From NCBI RefSeq assembly GCF_034627025.1, contig NZ_CP141050.1:744001-808000 (forward strand): a stretch of 64,000 nucleotides of DNA, in the 5' to 3' direction. Below are positions 22,294 through 28,371 of this stretch, piece after piece. Position numbers and translations under genes: made by a program. Under the pieces are notes generated by a model. It was not told the origin of the DNA, made no database searches, and was given only the letters and a program-made list of their open reading frames with translations. Each line of letters opens with the position of its first letter. Position 1 is the stretch's first letter. This DNA is from Microvirga lotononidis. Its GTDB lineage: Bacteria > Pseudomonadota > Alphaproteobacteria > Rhizobiales > Beijerinckiaceae.

Positions 22294-24453
22294 CTATTCT
22301 GCCGCAGGCCGTTTGGAGCTGGTGCGCTCAATCACGTGTCGTGCTGCGGCCGGGCCGGTCGCCTCCCGCTCCGATACCAGAACCGTCGGCGTGGCGAAAC
22401 GGATGCCACTCTCGTCGAAAGCCTGCTTGATCCGGGCAAGAGCCCTGCGCCTGATCGTGAACTGCTCGCCCGGTCTGGTCGTCATCTTGCAGCGGATCTC
22501 GATGGCATAGTCCCCGAACTGCTCAACTCCCTGCATCTTCAGCGGATCGATGATGTGTTGAGAGAATTCAGATTCCTCCGCTAGCTCTTGGCCAATCGTT
22601 TTGATGAGCTTGCGTACCCTCTCCAGGTCGGTGTCGTAGGTGACGTTGATCTGAAACTTGTCAATGACCCAGTCGCGGCTCATGTTCTGTACTGCCCCGA
22701 GCTGTCCGAACGGAACTGTGTAGACCGGCCCGCGATGATGCCGTAGTTTCACCGAGCGCAGGGAAAAGGCCTCGACCGTCCCCTTGTAGGAGCCGCTTTG
22801 GATATACTCGCCGATCCGAAATGCATCATCCAGCAGATAGAAGATCCCGCTGATGACGTCCTTGACCATTGTCTGGGCGCCAAACCCGACAGCCACGCCA
22901 AACACGCCGGCGCCTGCAATCAGCGGCCCAATCTCAAACCCGAGCGCCGACAAGGCAGTGAGCGCCGCCAATGTGGTGATGACCACAAATAGTATGTTGC
23001 GGAAGATTGGCAGCAAAGTGCGAAGCCGTGCCTGATGAATGGCATCCTTCGTGTTGGGGGATGCCGCTGCACCCGCTTCCGCCAGTCTAGCATCCACCGC
23101 GGCCTTGCTCACATGCCAGAGAAAGTCGGCCAGCAGCAGGACCATGATGCTCGTCAGAGCTCCACGGACCATTCTCGTCGCGAGGGTGTCACGCGCGGTG
23201 ATGGCGACGAGGTCAATGCCCCAGACATCCGCCAGGAACAATGCCGCAGTCAGCATGAGAACCATCCGCAATCCCCGCTTGATGGCGACCTCCAGAACAC
23301 CCCGCTTCGGAACTTCATCCTCGGCCGTGGGGCGCAGAAGGTGCGCGACCGCCAATTGCCCAACCGCGATGGCTTTGGGCAGCAGCATCGCGACCACGAT
23401 CAGCCAGAACAGGTGGTCGAGGCCTGCGACCCACAACAACCAGAGCAGGACACCATAAGCCGTGAGGAGGATGCTGAGGCAGGCAGGGCCCCAGCTGGTA
23501 TGCGGAGGCGCCACTTTGGGGCACGGTCGACGCCAGATCGCCTCCAGCGCGATCCCGAGCAGTCCCATGCCGAGGAAATAGCCAGCCGCCTCGTGCAGAT
23601 CCGGGCTGAAGCCGAACACAATCAAGAGATCCAGAGTGGCGCGCCCGAACGCCCAGTATCCTATGAACAGTCCCAACCGACGCTGCCAGAAGCGGGCGTG
23701 CTCGGCTGGCATCGGTACGACCCGGAACCGCGCTAAATCATCCAGCTCCACAGTGCCGTTCGGCACCAGCACCACACGGCCGAGAACGAGCGTCAGACGA
23801 AAGAGCACCGCGGCCGCCAGATACGCGATCACGACCTGCCGCAGGAGCGGCGGCCATTCGAACAAGAGGAATGCCCCGACACTGCCGAGTCCGAATATCG
23901 CCACAACCAATGATCCGAAGCCAAGGCGCATGGCGATCATGCGCAAGCGGTCCGCGACGGTGGTCATGGGATGGTGTCGGATCCAGCGGCGGCTTCGCTT
24001 TGTGGCGCGCCAGAACAGGCACTCGGAGCCATAGCCCAGAGCAGCGAACCCACCGATGAGCGCCACCACAGTGGAGAGCCCGCGGTTTCGGAGCTCCTGC
24101 AACAGACGATTGGACGCTCGGCGCAACTCGAACAGAAAATGTGGGATGGCCAGTACGACCTTTGCAAAATGCTCGTGGATCCCAGACAACCGCGACGCCA
24201 TCTGGATGCGGTCGGCTATAGGTTCGGAGGATGAAGGCGCCTCCTGCGCGCTCCGGGCCCGCTCCAGCCAAACGCGCACAGCCGGATCTTCGAGCAGCTT
24301 AACGAATTCTTGCACGGACGGTGGTGTCTGGGCTTCCTGGGCAGGAGCGACGGCACCAAGCGGCGCGGCAAGGAAGACCAGTGCGAGCAGGATGAGCATC
24401 GCCCATCGCCCCGGTTTCGCCGGTGCCAACATAATCACTCGCTCGACGACCAT
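22294..24453 (-). CDS. Large MscS-family mechanosensitive channel
   Basis: 719 residues. A signal peptide-like N-terminus is followed by a periplasmic helical region, then some eight to ten membrane segments, and the MscS core near residue 520: ALGFEIGPLIAGAGVFGVAVGFGAQTMVKDVISGIFYLLDDAFRIGEYI. The cytoplasmic domain includes GTVEAFSLRSVKLRHHRGPVYTVPFGQLGAVQNMSRDW. Such channels release solutes on hypo-osmotic shock. The ATG at 24453 has AGGTGA just upstream and is preferred to the GTG two codons earlier. Confidence 0.92.
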   Translation of the reverse strand: MVVERVIMLAPAKPGRWAMLILLALVFLAAPLGAVAPAQEAQTPPSVQEFVKLLEDPAVRVWLERARSAQEAPSSSEPIADRIQMASRLSGIHEHFAKVVLAIPHFLFELRRASNRLLQELRNRGLSTVVALIGGFAALGYGSECLFWRATKRSRRWIRHHPMTTVADRLRMIAMRLGFGSLVVAIFGLGSVGAFLLFEWPPLLRQVVIAYLAAAVLFRLTLVLGRVVLVPNGTVELDDLARFRVVPMPAEHARFWQRRLGLFIGYWAFGRATLDLLIVFGFSPDLHEAAGYFLGMGLLGIALEAIWRRPCPKVAPPHTSWGPACLSILLTAYGVLLWLLWVAGLDHLFWLIVVAMLLPKAIAVGQLAVAHLLRPTAEDEVPKRGVLEVAIKRGLRMVLMLTAALFLADVWGIDLVAITARDTLATRMVRGALTSIMVLLLADFLWHVSKAAVDARLAEAGAAASPNTKDAIHQARLRTLLPIFRNILFVVITTLAALTALSALGFEIGPLIAGAGVFGVAVGFGAQTMVKDVISGIFYLLDDAFRIGEYIQSGSYKGTVEAFSLRSVKLRHHRGPVYTVPFGQLGAVQNMSRDWVIDKFQINVTYDTDLERVRKLIKTIGQELAEESEFSQHIIDPLKMQGVEQFGDYAIEIRCKMTTRPGEQFTIRRRALARIKQAFDESGIRFATPTVLVSEREATGPAAARHVIERTSSKRPAAE

Positions 24454-25149
24454 GGTCACCTACCCCCAATCCAGGGACCATCTCATCTCGATTTCGGGCC
24501 AGGCGATATCAGGGATTTCTTTGAGGCGGCGAGCTTGTGTTGCCCGCCGAAACCGTCAGTCGTTCGACTCGCCCGAGCCAAATCGAACGCCGTCCAATAA
24601 CACGTCCAAGACGGAGGCGACGGCCACTTGCGCTCCTTCGACCGACGGCGGCAGGGTTAGAATTGGATGCTGATCGAGGGTCATACTTGGAAGCCGATTG
24701 ACAACCGGACGCTGTCCCATGCCGCGGTCGTCCTTCGAGCGCCACATGGCAACGGGCTCGGGCCTGCCGGGACAATCGGTGAGCGGGAGCTACCCTGCCC
24801 TGCGCTCCAGGAAAGTCCGGTAGCGTCCATCCGCCTTCAGTTCCGGCATTCGGTAGCAACGACCACCAAGAGTCAGCTAAGTGCCTAGACGGGCAAAGAA
24901 CTTTCGCGCTATCGATCATAGAACGTTCGGGATCCTCGGCGAGGGAGCGGTTCCGGCCATATCAATCGTGGGAGCGGCCACTTCAGCAAGTCCGATGCCT
25001 CAAAGGCCTCATCCCGACCTGAAAACGGCACTTCCTTTGTTCGGCTCTACTTCTCAGTTCGCCCCCAAGGGGACGTTCGACCGTGAACGAGCAACGTGTG
25101 CCGCCTATCGAACGGTTATCCGCCTTACTGCAGTCACGCAGACGGCTTA
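24454..25149. other. Intergenic stretch, no convincing gene
   Basis: About 700 bases upstream of the MscS gene and downstream of the sigma factor. Small frames exist (for example 63 codons at 24556-24747 on the minus strand) but none has a ribosome site or recognisable sequence. Confidence 0.45.
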
Positions 25150-26058
25150 TCAGGCTGGTGGTATCGGCGAGATGCGTTTTGGAAAGTCCACGTCTGCCGC
25201 CAAGTGAGACAGCTTATCCGGGTTTTTGACGATGTAGATCGCGGTGATCCCGTCTTCGCGGATGTCGAGCGCGGTTGTCTGAAGAACGCCGCCTCCATCA
25301 AGGCTGACGTAGCCTGGTAGGCCGTCGATGGTGACGACACGAAGCAGCGTCGGCGGCAGGGCATCCTTGCGCCGCTGCCCGGTAAAAAGGCGCAGGGCCC
25401 GCTCGACACCCTGGATGACATTGCGGAAGGCAAGGACCTTGCCGCCGCCATCGGTATGAATCTCGACATTCCTTGCCAGAAGCACTGATAGCGCCGCCAC
25501 GTCCCCGTCGCGCGCCGCGGCGAAGAAGGCACGAGTGATCCGGTCCGCATCCGCGGGTTCGACGTTGAAGCGGGGACGGGCGGCCTGCACGTTCTTGCGG
25601 GCGCGCGCCGCGAGCTGACGAACCGCGGCCGGCTTACGGTCGAGGGTCGTGGCCACTTCGGCCAGCGGCACGTCGAAGACGTCATGAAGAAGGAAGGCGG
25701 CCCGCTCCAGAGGCGACAGACGCTCGAGGGCCAGCATCAACGTGACCGTGACGTCGTCGACGACCGTCTCGTCCGGCTCCACGGAACCCACGAGAGGATC
25801 TGGCAGCCAGGGTCCGACGTAGGTTTCCCGCCGCGCCCGCGCGGAGCGGCGTCGGTCGAGGCACAGGCGTGTGACGATGCGGGTGAGATAGGCGGGAGGC
25901 GAATCGATGCCACCCTCCACCCCAACCCACCGCAGCCATGCGTCCTGCACGACGTCCTCCGCCTCGGTGAGCGAGCCCGTCATCCGGTAGGCCAGACGTG
26001 TCAGGCGCCTGCGCTCCGCCTCGAACTCGGTGGTCCGCCGATCGTCCATCGCCTCCAT
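25150..26058 (-). CDS. ECF41-type (SigJ-like) RNA polymerase sigma factor
   Basis: 302 residues from the chosen start. Sigma region 2 reads RRRLTRLAYRMTGSLTEAEDVVQDAWLRW; region 4 reads LERAAFLLHDVFDVPLAEVATTLDRKPAAVRQLAARAR. The C-terminal SnoaL-like extension has the three ECF41 marks: WLPDP in the linker, DGGGK and NPDKL. In this group the extension modulates sigma activity in place of a separate anti-sigma factor. In-frame starts at 26082, 26058 and 26049 are possible; the more upstream one at 26184 is excluded because a self-type promoter lies at 26125-26151. Divergent to a CMD gene, the standard ECF41 neighbour. Confidence 0.93.
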   Translation of the reverse strand: MEAMDDRRTTEFEAERRRLTRLAYRMTGSLTEAEDVVQDAWLRWVGVEGGIDSPPAYLTRIVTRLCLDRRRSARARRETYVGPWLPDPLVGSVEPDETVVDDVTVTLMLALERLSPLERAAFLLHDVFDVPLAEVATTLDRKPAAVRQLAARARKNVQAARPRFNVEPADADRITRAFFAAARDGDVAALSVLLARNVEIHTDGGGKVLAFRNVIQGVERALRLFTGQRRKDALPPTLLRVVTIDGLPGYVSLDGGGVLQTTALDIREDGITAIYIVKNPDKLSHLAADVDFPKRISPIPPA

Positions 26059-26124
26059 CCGCCCCGTTTTCTCGCCGACCATATCCGCTTTCCCGTCGCA
26101 CGCGCATCCCGGACCCGAGGATAA

Positions 26125-26151
26125 GACGATCGGACGGGCCCGGATGTGACA
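26125..26151 (-). promoter_or_regulatory. Putative ECF41 promoter for the sigma gene
   Basis: On the minus strand TGTCACA (26151-26145) is followed after 16 nt by CGTC (26128-26125). These are the published -35 and -10 types for ECF41 promoters. It points at the sigma gene, suggesting autoregulation. Confidence 0.75.
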
Positions 26152-26183
26152 TCGGCCGCTGCGAGCGGAAATGCGGAGTGGCA

Positions 26184-26210
26184 TGTCACATCCTGATCGC
26201 TTGGCCCGTC
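26184..26210 (+). promoter_or_regulatory. Putative ECF41 promoter for the CMD gene
   Basis: TGTCACA (26184-26190), 16-nt spacer, CGTC (26207-26210), 47 bases before the CMD ATG. Same motif and same spacer as the opposite-facing copy at 26125-26151. Confidence 0.78.
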
Positions 26211-26257
26211 ATGGCTTCGAACGTCGATTTCGGGCGTTCCGAACAGAGAGATGTGTC

Positions 26258-26713
26258 ATGAGCGAGAACAAACGGCTGGTCTGGAACGAGGTGGCGCCGC
26301 AAGGTGCAAAGGCCCTTTTCGGCATCCACCACTACATCACCACGGCCACCGACCTACCCCCCGAACTGATCCACCTTGTCTTCCTGCGGGTTTCGCAGAT
26401 CAACGGCTGCGCGCACTGCATCGACCTGCACACCCGGGACCTCCTGGACACGATGCCGTTCGAGAAGGTCGCCCTCGTTCCGGTCTGGGCCGAGGTGCCC
26501 CACCTGTTCCCCGACAAGTACCGCGCCGCGCTCGCGTGGGCGGAGGAAGTCACGCTCGTCAGCGAGACGCACGCCTCCGACGAAGCCTATGCGGCCGCAA
26601 GCGCGGCTTTCGCGCCCAAGGATCTCGTGGACCTCACGATCACAATCGCGGCAATGAACGCGTTCAACCGGCTGGGCGCGCCCTTTCGGCTTCCGGTCAA
26701 GGCCAGGGCCTAA
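26258..26713 (+). CDS. Carboxymuconolactone decarboxylase-family (AhpD-like) protein
   Basis: 151 residues with the CMD fold and redox motif INGCAHCIDLHTRDL (CxxC-x3-H), plus MNAFNRLGAPFR near the C-terminus. Predicted peroxidase or thiol oxidoreductase. AGAGAG precedes the ATG at 26258. Its promoter carries the ECF41 motif and the divergent neighbour is the ECF41 sigma factor, so it is the likely main target of that sigma. Known ECF41 targets are CMD proteins, oxidoreductases or epimerases, and the paralogous set at 5.2-7.0 kb contains similar families. Confidence 0.92.
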   Translation: MSENKRLVWNEVAPQGAKALFGIHHYITTATDLPPELIHLVFLRVSQINGCAHCIDLHTRDLLDTMPFEKVALVPVWAEVPHLFPDKYRAALAWAEEVTLVSETHASDEAYAAASAAFAPKDLVDLTITIAAMNAFNRLGAPFRLPVKARA

Positions 26714-27180
26714 TCCGCTTCTTTGTATCGTCACGGAACGGCCCCGGCGCCGTTCCGCTTCCACCATTCAGGATCCAACCCATGGCTGCGAGACACTGGA
26801 CCAGAAATTCCACCCGGAGGCCGGGAATGTCGCATATTGCACTTCTCTGAAGTAAACCGATGGTCTGCTCTCGCGGGGAGCAGCGGACGTTCCTAGAGCA
26901 TAGGGGATCGTCAGTGCGTGACCCTGGCTGTCGTCTAATCGCGCGGTGGAATGCAAGCCCTTTTTGGTGTCGAGGCTGTGGTTTGCCGGGAGCAGTGTCG
27001 TCTTCGCGGTCGACAGCAGTCGCCGCATGATGGGGCTTCGCAGGGGGAACCTTCCAAGGTGTCAAACGCACGCTGCGGGCTTGGGGCGCGTAGGTGCAAC
27101 AGGCTCGGCGGAATGGTTCGTCCACGTCCCGGCAGGGACGCCTCAGCACGCCCCGGGGCAGGCGCATCGAACTCTCCGGG
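26714..27180. other. Intergenic stretch, no gene seen
   Basis: About 470 bases between the CMD gene and the IS110 transposase. It probably holds one end of the IS110-type element, which lacks obvious terminal repeats; no coding frame is convincing. Confidence 0.45.
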
Positions 27181-28206
27181 TCAGGCGGTGGCGCTGTCCG
27201 TCCGGTTGAACGGCTCGCCGGATTTCAGCATCGCGTGCATGATGACAGCCAACTTGCGGGCTACAGCCACGGCTGCCCGCTTGAAGCCGATCCGCTCGCG
27301 CAGCATCAGCCCCCATTGACGCAGGTCGCTCTCGGCATGACTGCGCGTCAGGATCACGGTCGCGGCCTCATAGAGCAGCCCTCTCAGATGAGCGTCGCCG
27401 CGCCGGGAGATGTGGCCGTCATAATCGACCTCGCCTGATTGGTACCGTCGGGTCGTCAGACCCAGCCAGGCTCCGACCGAGCGCGACGTCTTGAAGTTCT
27501 CCGGATCCTCAATCGCAGCCGTGAACGAGGTGGCGGTGATCGCCCCCACGCCGGGGATCGCCATCAGCCGCTGGCAGGCCGCGCTTTGCCGGGCACTGGC
27601 AAGAAGCTGGCGCCCCAGGGCAGATGCCCGGCTGCGCACGCTGCGCCAGGCCTCCAGCATCGGCAGGATGATGCGGGCGAGTTCATCCTGCCCGACCAGG
27701 AGGCGCTGAACCTCGGCTTCGAATGTGGCGCCTTTGCCGCGGGGTATAACCAGCCCGAACGTCTTCATGAGCCCCCGGATCTGGTTGGACAGCTCGGTTG
27801 TGATCTGGACCAACCGGGACCGTGCGGCCACCCGCGTGCGGGCCAACATGCTGTCATAGCCCTTTACCCGCACCGCGCGGTAGAAGCCGACCTCGGCCAG
27901 ATGGGCCAGGCCATCGGCATCGTTGGCGTCAGTTTTGTTGGGCGCCATGTCGAGGGCGGCCTTGGCATGGCGAGCGTCAATGCAGATTGCCGGCAGCCCC
28001 TCGGCCTGGAGCGCATGATAGAACCACACCGACAAAGGCCCGGTCTCGAACACCACCCGCTTGGGCTCAGGCGCACGCTTGCGAAGGACCTCGGCGATCA
28101 GGGTTGGATCCGACGGGCATTTGCCGCGCCAGATCCGCTTGCCGTCCCGCCGCACCGAGATCGCCGTCTCTTTCAGCGACACGTCAAGACCGATATCCTC
28201 ACCCAT
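27181..28206 (-). CDS. IS110-family transposase (DEDD recombinase)
   Basis: 341 residues from MGEDIGLDVS. The N-terminal DEDD domain shows acidic residues in GLDVSLKETAI, FETGPLSVW and NKTDANDADGLA. The C-terminal Transposase_20 domain has IPGVGAITATSFTAAIEDPENF and SVGAWLGLTTRRYQSGEVDYDGHISRRGDAHLR, including the serine-bearing part of the family. IS110 elements move through a circular intermediate guided, in recently studied members, by a bridge RNA encoded in the non-coding end. The frame is intact. Element ends were not defined. Confidence 0.93.
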   Translation of the reverse strand: MGEDIGLDVSLKETAISVRRDGKRIWRGKCPSDPTLIAEVLRKRAPEPKRVVFETGPLSVWFYHALQAEGLPAICIDARHAKAALDMAPNKTDANDADGLAHLAEVGFYRAVRVKGYDSMLARTRVAARSRLVQITTELSNQIRGLMKTFGLVIPRGKGATFEAEVQRLLVGQDELARIILPMLEAWRSVRSRASALGRQLLASARQSAACQRLMAIPGVGAITATSFTAAIEDPENFKTSRSVGAWLGLTTRRYQSGEVDYDGHISRRGDAHLRGLLYEAATVILTRSHAESDLRQWGLMLRERIGFKRAAVAVARKLAVIMHAMLKSGEPFNRTDSATA

Positions 28207-28371
28207 GGTTGTTCTCCGTTCGATGCTTGGGCCCGGCGTCCAGTCGAGAGCCCGTATCTTCATCTTATCGGGGAACAACCACCCGCTCTTCCATGCAATG
28301 ACTATCTGGCTCCAGGGTGACTCGCTCCGCGATTACCCACGCAAGGCACAGAATTCATCGGGATCACCGGG

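Follow-up and report, generated by a model that had tools for sequence, protein, structure and literature searches.

ECF41 sigma factors belong to the extracytoplasmic function (ECF) sigma factors. Wecke et al. 2012 (PMC3426412) define their promoter motif as TGTCACA, a spacer of 16 ± 1 nt and CGTC. Table 4 of that work comprises 55 loci in which the ECF41 gene and a COE gene (carboxymuconolactone decarboxylase, oxidoreductase or epimerase) are divergently oriented; 36 of them show the motif ahead of the sigma factor gene and 41 ahead of the COE gene. According to the same work most of the C-terminal extension of these proteins inhibits the sigma factor and the first part of the extension is required, as demonstrated for B. 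licheniformis (Bacillus) and R. sphaeroides (Rhodobacter). The stretch of 64,000 nt of the Microvirga lotononidis genome analysed here (assembly GCF_034627025.1, contig NZ_CP141050.1, positions 744,001 to 808,000; referred to as the window) very probably harbours a system of this kind: an ECF41 sigma factor gene and a divergent target gene predicted to encode a CMD/AhpD-like protein (CMD, carboxymuconolactone decarboxylase), each located behind its own predicted ECF41-type promoter. The paired divergent arrangement is therefore not new, and the locus is a good example of the type described in 2012. It shares with the divergent <ECF< >COE> class the C-terminal extension, a WLPEP-type linker, the adjacent CMD gene and the motif before both genes; it differs from this class in nothing essential, the linker in the window reading WLPDP.

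A similar pair is known from Sinorhizobium meliloti, where overexpression of the ECF41 factor RpoE9 revealed a single target, the neighbouring CMD gene SMb20029, and where a similarly built promoter (CCATGTCACACC...CTCGTCATGG), the start of which has been mapped, precedes SMb20029-rpoE9 (PMC6180224). Unlike in the window, the CMD gene and rpoE9 of S. meliloti likely form one operon with one promoter. Azospirillum RpoE10, which belongs to the same ECF group, has been reported to control lateral flagella (Dubey et al. 2020, as cited in PMC8999054 and PMC12826043), so that some ECF41 factors appear to reach beyond the neighbouring COE gene. The more distant SigJ of Mycobacterium tuberculosis (PDB 5xe7), compared by sequence only, matches residues 15-292 of the window sigma factor including the extension (E 1.4e-48).

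The ECF41 (SigJ-like) sigma factor gene was located at positions 25150..26082 of the minus strand. Its predicted product contains the sigma regions 2 and 4 (PF04542, Sigma70_r2, and PF08281, r4_2, both above the Pfam gathering cut-offs) and scores above the cut-off of the NCBIfam model NF007214 (SigJ; 351.3 versus 271 bits) and below that of TIGR02957 (SigX4; 282.9 versus 323.25 bits). The C-terminal extension, which measures about 100 aa in ECF41 factors, was recognised via the SigJ match and via conserved motifs. All three ECF41 marks listed in an initial annotation of the sequence (WLPDP, DGGGK and NPDKL) were found in the protein. DGGGK and NPDKL are taken here, as in that annotation, to be the published motifs of the extension. 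The alignment of homologues comprised 30 sequences, two of which are rows of nine residues owing to prematurely terminated frames. Of the 28 full-length sequences 27 contain DGGGK and 27 NPDKL, and the linker between sigma2 and sigma4 reads WLPDP in 19 and WLPEP in nine of them, including the chromosomal paralogue described below. The start of the sigma factor gene is uncertain. The ATG at 26082 opens the longest conserved match, whereas the annotated homologue of Microvirga terrae starts 33 nt later, corresponding to the ATG at 26049 in the window, and a frame opened at the upstream position ends after 9 codons in two homologues from Methylobacterium; a start at 26049 thus appears more likely.

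The gene on the other side, at 26258..26713 of the plus strand, encodes a protein of 151 aa assigned to PF02627 (45.9 versus a cut-off of 23 bits) and to TIGR00778 (ahpD_dom; 34.9 versus 27.8 bits). It carries a CxxC motif (CAHC) at residues 51-54, and the protein may have a redox role.

Two exact copies of TGTCACA-N16-CGTC are located between the two genes. The predicted sigma-facing promoter (26151..26125, minus strand; TGTCACATCCGGGCCCGTCCGATCGTC) consists of the -35 box TGTCACA at 26151..26145, a 16-nt spacer and the -10 box CGTC at 26128..26125, and the predicted CMD-facing promoter (26184..26210, plus strand; TGTCACATCCTGATCGCTTGGCCCGTC) of the corresponding elements at 26184-26190 and 26207-26210, again separated by 16 nt. 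The -35 boxes stand back to back across a gap of 32 bp (26152..26183), and each promoter is aimed at its own gene. The gap contains a small A-rich core (GGAAATG in the direction of the CMD gene). The initial annotation was thus right about the exact motif on both strands, about the spacers and about the orientation towards the two genes; it had assigned the sites to 26058..26258, whereas both together actually span 26125-26210. It had also stressed the identity of the 16-nt spacers, which is indeed present but not remarkable, since 16 ± 1 nt is the published consensus. The pair accounts for both exact matches in the window, compared with a mean of 0.12 in 100 shuffled versions of the window (spacers of 14-18 nt); two of these 100 shuffles also reached two exact matches. 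The motif with two mismatches and a spacer of 16 nt occurred at chance level (20 seen, 17.6 expected), and therefore only the exact form is informative. If the transcripts start 7-9 nt past CGTC, an offset derived from the promoter listing for S. meliloti in the text version of PMC6180224, in which the marking of the start is lost, the predicted leaders would measure about 65-70 nt for the sigma factor gene, counted to the ATG at 26049, and about 40 nt for the CMD gene.

The conservation of the sites was examined in 28 divergent loci, namely the window and 27 others from Microvirga, Bradyrhizobium, Azospirillum, Methylobacterium, Pseudoroseomonas, sphingomonads, Rhizobiaceae and kin, and Hyphomonas; locus L027, whose contig stops short of the CMD gene, and loci L034-L038, second copies of included loci, were left out. 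Allowing one mismatch, the CMD-facing promoter was detected in all 28 and the sigma-facing promoter in 26 loci, with a spacer of 16 nt throughout, and in the 26 loci with both promoters the gap between the -35 boxes measures 31-36 bp. As stated in the initial annotation, motif, spacing and neighbouring gene fit ECF41; the protein family and the self-facing promoter fit as well.

A closer view was obtained from 15 close copies including the window; L012, L014, L017 and L021, which also belong to this group, were not used. Neither of the -35 boxes varies in these copies, nor does the sigma-facing -10 box, and the CMD-facing -10 box differs in a single one; one base of a -10 CGTC is changed in L008. 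The mean identity, in contrast, is 0.86-0.87 in the spacers, 0.84-0.85 in the leaders and 0.81 in the gap, values comparable to the 0.81-0.83 of third codon positions. Among the 14 copies with a 32-bp gap one of 22 columns varies within the boxes and 37 of 64 elsewhere (Fisher p 9e-6, to be taken as a guide only since the sequences are related). The script used for this comparison sought exact -35 boxes, and a separate scan allowing three mismatches agrees for the same loci. The conservation in relatives supports the assumption that both sites are functional, and the footprinting complements the prediction of 2012: selection appears to have kept both divergent promoters, and the distance between them is nearly fixed. 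In the region preceding the CMD-facing -35 box, runs of A/T of 8-12 bases occur in nine of the 28 loci (L023-L026, L028-L031 and L033, from Rhizobiaceae and kin, sphingomonads and Hyphomonas) at a near-constant position in the gap, and runs of 2-4 bases in the other 19. This tract may serve the CMD promoter as an UP-like element, with GGAAATG as its possible counterpart in the window. A palindrome in the gap, CCGCT-N3-AGCGG, was dropped as a candidate as it occurs in some Microvirga copies only.

The motif search that the initial annotation proposed for the replicon was carried out on the whole 7.3 Mb genome of the organism and yielded five exact matches and none for the reversed pattern. Three of the five are found at ECF41 loci, namely the pair in the window and one match before an operon (L001, C1:2023026-2024409) in which a CMD gene precedes a second, chromosomal ECF41 gene (C1:2023026-2023868) of the same orientation. 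The remaining two matches were read as chance occurrences, the latter of them less certainly. The match at C1:2218112 (L002), next to a gene for a small protein without Pfam family, is exact in one of 30 loci, its own, and shows 2-4 mismatches in the others; that at C1:4138509 (L003), next to a gene encoding a Mem_trans-family transporter, is likewise exact in one of 30, with one mismatch in two near relatives and at least two in 27. These comparisons cover the best 30 of 47 and the best 30 of 48 matches, respectively, own locus included. In 48 genomes of the genus the reversed control gave 59 matches and the motif 97 exact ones. Of these 97, 47 lie no more than 1.1 kb from an ECF41 gene and 50 elsewhere, and 38 of the 41 ECF41 loci of the genus (E 1e-60) have at least one exact match. 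Away from the ECF41 genes no excess over the control was seen (50 versus 59). No sign of a wider conserved regulon was detected in the 48 genomes.

In the operon-type ECF41 loci of the genus the motif with at most one mismatch precedes the CMD gene in 32 of 32 cases (N16 in 30, N17 in two) and was found within 60 bp upstream of the sigma factor gene in none of the 32, which indicates that these promoters occur where the transcription unit begins. Five loci from genomes of the family (L079, L080, L084, L085 and L086) carry two tandem CMD genes before the ECF41 gene and one motif (0-1 mismatch) ahead of the first of them. An ECF41 gene is also present on a 47-kb IMG/VR contig classed as viral (L176), perhaps a misclassed bacterial contig, together with two TGTCAC-type promoter matches pointing apart (2827, minus strand, and 2856, plus strand).

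The second ECF41 factor of M. lotononidis is 57% identical overall to that of the window. Its operon is preceded by the promoter TGTCACATCCGG...CTCGTC before the CMD gene, whose -35 region is nearly as in the window, and the likely DNA-reading stretch of domain 4 differs little between the two proteins (KPAAVRQLAARARKNV and DPAACRQLAARARKNV). This stretch presumably contains the helix that reads the -35 region. Since a resident second ECF41 factor is found behind the same motif, the single main target proposed in the initial annotation needs care.

“Self-control” of the sigma factor gene is predicted from this arrangement. RNA polymerase carrying the window sigma factor would read TGTCACA-N16-CGTC on both strands and transcribe outward from the centre of about 32 bp; the CMD-facing promoter would provide the CMD enzyme as the output, and the sigma-facing promoter would provide the sigma factor itself, resulting in a positive feedback. 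The sigma factor would presumably be held down by its own SnoaL-like C-terminal extension until a signal relieves the inhibition, whereupon the feedback would raise the sigma factor level and the output together. Such a self-inhibition by the extension is to be expected, as no recognisable anti-sigma factor gene was found beside the sigma factor gene by Pfam, although six family-less open reading frames (ORFs) could hide one. The proteins, the two sites with their spacing, their conservation and the scarcity of the motif elsewhere are results of the analysis, whereas we infer the activity of the promoters, the feedback and the control by the extension from the arrangement of the locus and from the described systems.

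Several observations weigh against this model. The sigma-facing promoter has been lost and the CMD-facing one kept in L028 (Neorhizobium alkalisoli) and L030 (Hyphomonas polymorpha), both of which carry the long A/T tract, suggesting that the feedback is dispensable; the two loci offer natural comparisons for what self-activation adds. In the operon-type locus L070 an exact match, which may be due to chance, overlaps the start of the sigma factor gene. No SnoaL domain of Pfam was detected in the window sigma factor at E 0.001. Furthermore, the 28 divergent loci originate from a search reaching close relatives only and from extra copies of one genome of the genus, and they are not independent, several Bradyrhizobium copies being 95-99% identical, so that the counts overstate the independence of the evidence.

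It may be asked whether the CMD-facing promoter alone is relevant, with a weak or idle sigma-facing site and a sigma factor gene that uses another promoter. The two loci without a sigma-facing site would be in line with this, as would the lower count of sigma-facing than of COE-facing sites among the 55 loci of Wecke et al. (36 versus 41). However, the retention of the sigma-facing site in 26 of 28 loci and the invariance of its boxes in the 15 close copies, in which spacer and leader vary, make this scenario improbable. A cross-wired circuit in place of a single-target switch, in which each of the two ECF41 factors fires all three promoters, has a considerable chance of being real, though we place it somewhat below even. 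Cross-activation is possible because the genome contains the second ECF41 factor with the same promoter motif, and the nearly identical -35 regions and the similar reading stretches of domain 4 point in this direction, whereas the overall identity of only 57% and the differing promoter spacers argue against it; such a sharing of targets would be compatible with a self-activating ECF41 factor serving the CMD gene.

The inverted pair TGTGACA-N32-TGTCACA might also be regarded as the operator of a dimeric repressor or activator instead of two promoters, given that the -35 boxes of the window form an exact 10-bp inverted repeat (GGATGTGACA...TGTCACATCC). This reading was rejected as highly improbable, since the -10 CGTC accompanies the boxes at 16 nt (apart from the single changed base in L008), since operon-type loci have a single such site before the first gene, and since the 10-bp symmetry is broken in most close relatives, in which the CMD side reads TGTCACACCC. 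A chance origin of a motif of 7 + 4 bases in a GC-rich genome is conceivable in view of the off-locus matches, which occur at the control rate, and of the two shuffles containing two matches. Against this stands a stretch of 86 bp between the expected genes that holds two exact matches, in a window for which 0.12 would be expected, and as both sites are conserved, we regard chance as practically negligible.

The sigma factor gene, both promoters and the CMD gene appear to constitute a transferable unit, placed at 25063..26792 according to the ends of homology of the other copies. Units of about 1.7-1.85 kb that are 83-95% identical to the window were found in Microvirga, Bradyrhizobium, Azospirillum, Pseudoroseomonas and Methylobacterium (L008-L022, L032, L063 and L071). 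In a comparison with 14 other copies the sigma-side end of the homology falls at 25059-25071 in 12, the exceptions being Azospirillum (25149) and Methylobacterium (25197); its CMD-side end falls at 26788-26792 in eight and within 26715-26843 in six. Many pairs of other Microvirga copies share about 80-125 bp more on the CMD side. The copies are not all located at different places: L008 and L071 also have the CMD-side flank in common, as far as the compared stretch reaches, and flanks are shared among L011, L012 and L014 and between L020 and L021. The unit of Azospirillum rugosum is 94.8% identical over 1573 bp, compared with 78-80% for recA against the two recA genes of the window genome, and that of Bradyrhizobium CCBAU 43298 is 88.6% identical over 1692 bp, compared with 79-83% for recA. 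Since the identity of the unit lies well above that of recA in both cases, horizontal transfer is clear from these comparisons for Azospirillum and Bradyrhizobium, in the case of Azospirillum across bacterial orders. Among the Microvirga copies (93-95%, compared with 91-96% for the main recA) and in Methylobacterium (83.6%, compared with 83-86% for recA) the identity of the unit is not clearly above that of recA and thus proves nothing on transfer. Microvirga sesbaniae has two copies of the unit, as has M. terrae (G041), in which one of them is located on a plasmid of 238,488 bp. A transferred ECF41 factor beside a resident one with the same motif provides a test of how an acquired sigma factor fits into a resident circuit or interferes with it. 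The genome of M. lotononidis itself contains two full recA genes (C1:3656401 and C3:361234; 82.8% DNA identity), one of them on the replicon of the window, and its relatives G041 and G237 show three.

A directional repeat of about 60 bp ending in TGACCC..AGCGGAC.TT was detected at or near the edges of several copies of the unit and of other Microvirga modules, having the same direction on both sides wherever both were found. Sequences resembling TGACCC...GCGGAC are common in Rhizobiales. The window contains a possible degenerate copy at the sigma-side edge (25008..25068, plus strand), which has 4 mismatches in 19 to TGACCCGAAGCGGACGTTC and overlaps the unit with its last bases, and a copy past the CMD-side edge (26881..26925, plus strand; profile E 0.032, 14.4 bits); other repeats are located in L010 (4005-4062), L019 (2143-2188) and L063 (4263-4308) as well as in L177-L196 and L210-L216. 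Compared with TGACCCGAAGCGGACGTTC, the sigma-side edge shows at most three mismatches in 10 of 19 copies, four in five including the window and 8-9 in four; part of this match reflects shared descent, since the last bases of the string lie inside the unit. A relaxed core of the repeat occurs 28 times in the 48 genomes of the genus compared with 6 times for the reversed control, and three of the 28 are at ECF41 units. The alignment of 20 of these 28 occurrences, which includes none of the three, revealed a weak box (about 0.6-1.0 bits per column) 30-35 nt upstream of the core and little conservation after it; the box is clear in many repeats and weak in L184, L186 and L190.

A profile built from 19 of these repeats (one with an N was dropped) and seven ECF41 sigma-side edges detected CMD-side repeats of unchanged direction (E 0.002-0.06) in the window, in L015, L019 and L063, and in L011 and its near-twin L012, none of these sites having entered the training; on one Markov-shuffled set it gave nothing above 9 bits. 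These CMD-side repeats start between about 4 bp (L063) and 210 bp (L011) past the last shared DNA, the distance in the window being 35-85 bp. Further repeats were matched about 1 kb further out in L010 and about 2 kb past the sigma side in L013. On the sigma side the profile recovered trained copies and their twins only, and not the window, L009, L015-L017, L019-L022 or L063. In two other pairs of modules the shared DNA begins at or just before the end of the repeat and stops near +1766 or +3690, and a further repeat of the same direction follows after about 30-50 bp, in one of the two copies of one pair and in both copies of the other (E 1e-5 to 0.06); a third module of 5.2-5.5 kb in three genomes has no repeat match at its far edge. 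The reading of the repeats as integron attC sites was not supported, as six of the 20 repeats folded as single-stranded DNA gave z values of -2.4 to +0.6 and no common structure, and Rfam identified no family at gathering score in eight repeat-bearing loci.

These features might indicate that the ECF41-CMD unit is carried by an exchange system of the cassette type, so far undescribed, in Microvirga and related Rhizobiales, in which modules of about 1.8-5.5 kb between same-direction repeats of about 60 bp are swapped whole between replicons and species without an own recombinase in the unit. This seems rather unlikely at present, the reading being weakened by unit edges that are less uniform than first thought, and the mobile repeat-bounded unit is to be taken as a lead. 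Among the titles and abstracts listed in literature searches none dealt with a mobile ECF41-CMD unit or with repeat-bounded modules in Microvirga, which is weak evidence of absence. If the module reading were true, it would reveal a hitherto unrecognised means by which gene modules move in soil Rhizobiales, and a regulator switching on itself and its own output would suit a mobile life, as it would need nothing from a new site.

Besides the CMD gene, Pfam families could be assigned in the surroundings to a gene for an MscS-type channel (22294-24459) and to an IS110-family transposase gene (27181-28278), the six further ORFs around the locus having none. The transposase gene lies about 250 bp past the CMD-side repeat. 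An insertion of the IS110 element into the repeat was not retained as a reading, since the genome contains no close second copy from which the ends of the element could be defined (the best other being 74% identical over part of it). A GC-rich hairpin without a clear T run (GGAACGG-N8-CCGTTCC; 26735..26756, plus strand) is located 3' of the CMD gene and represents a possible terminator of it; it is similar in eight aligned Microvirga copies and deleted in Azospirillum.

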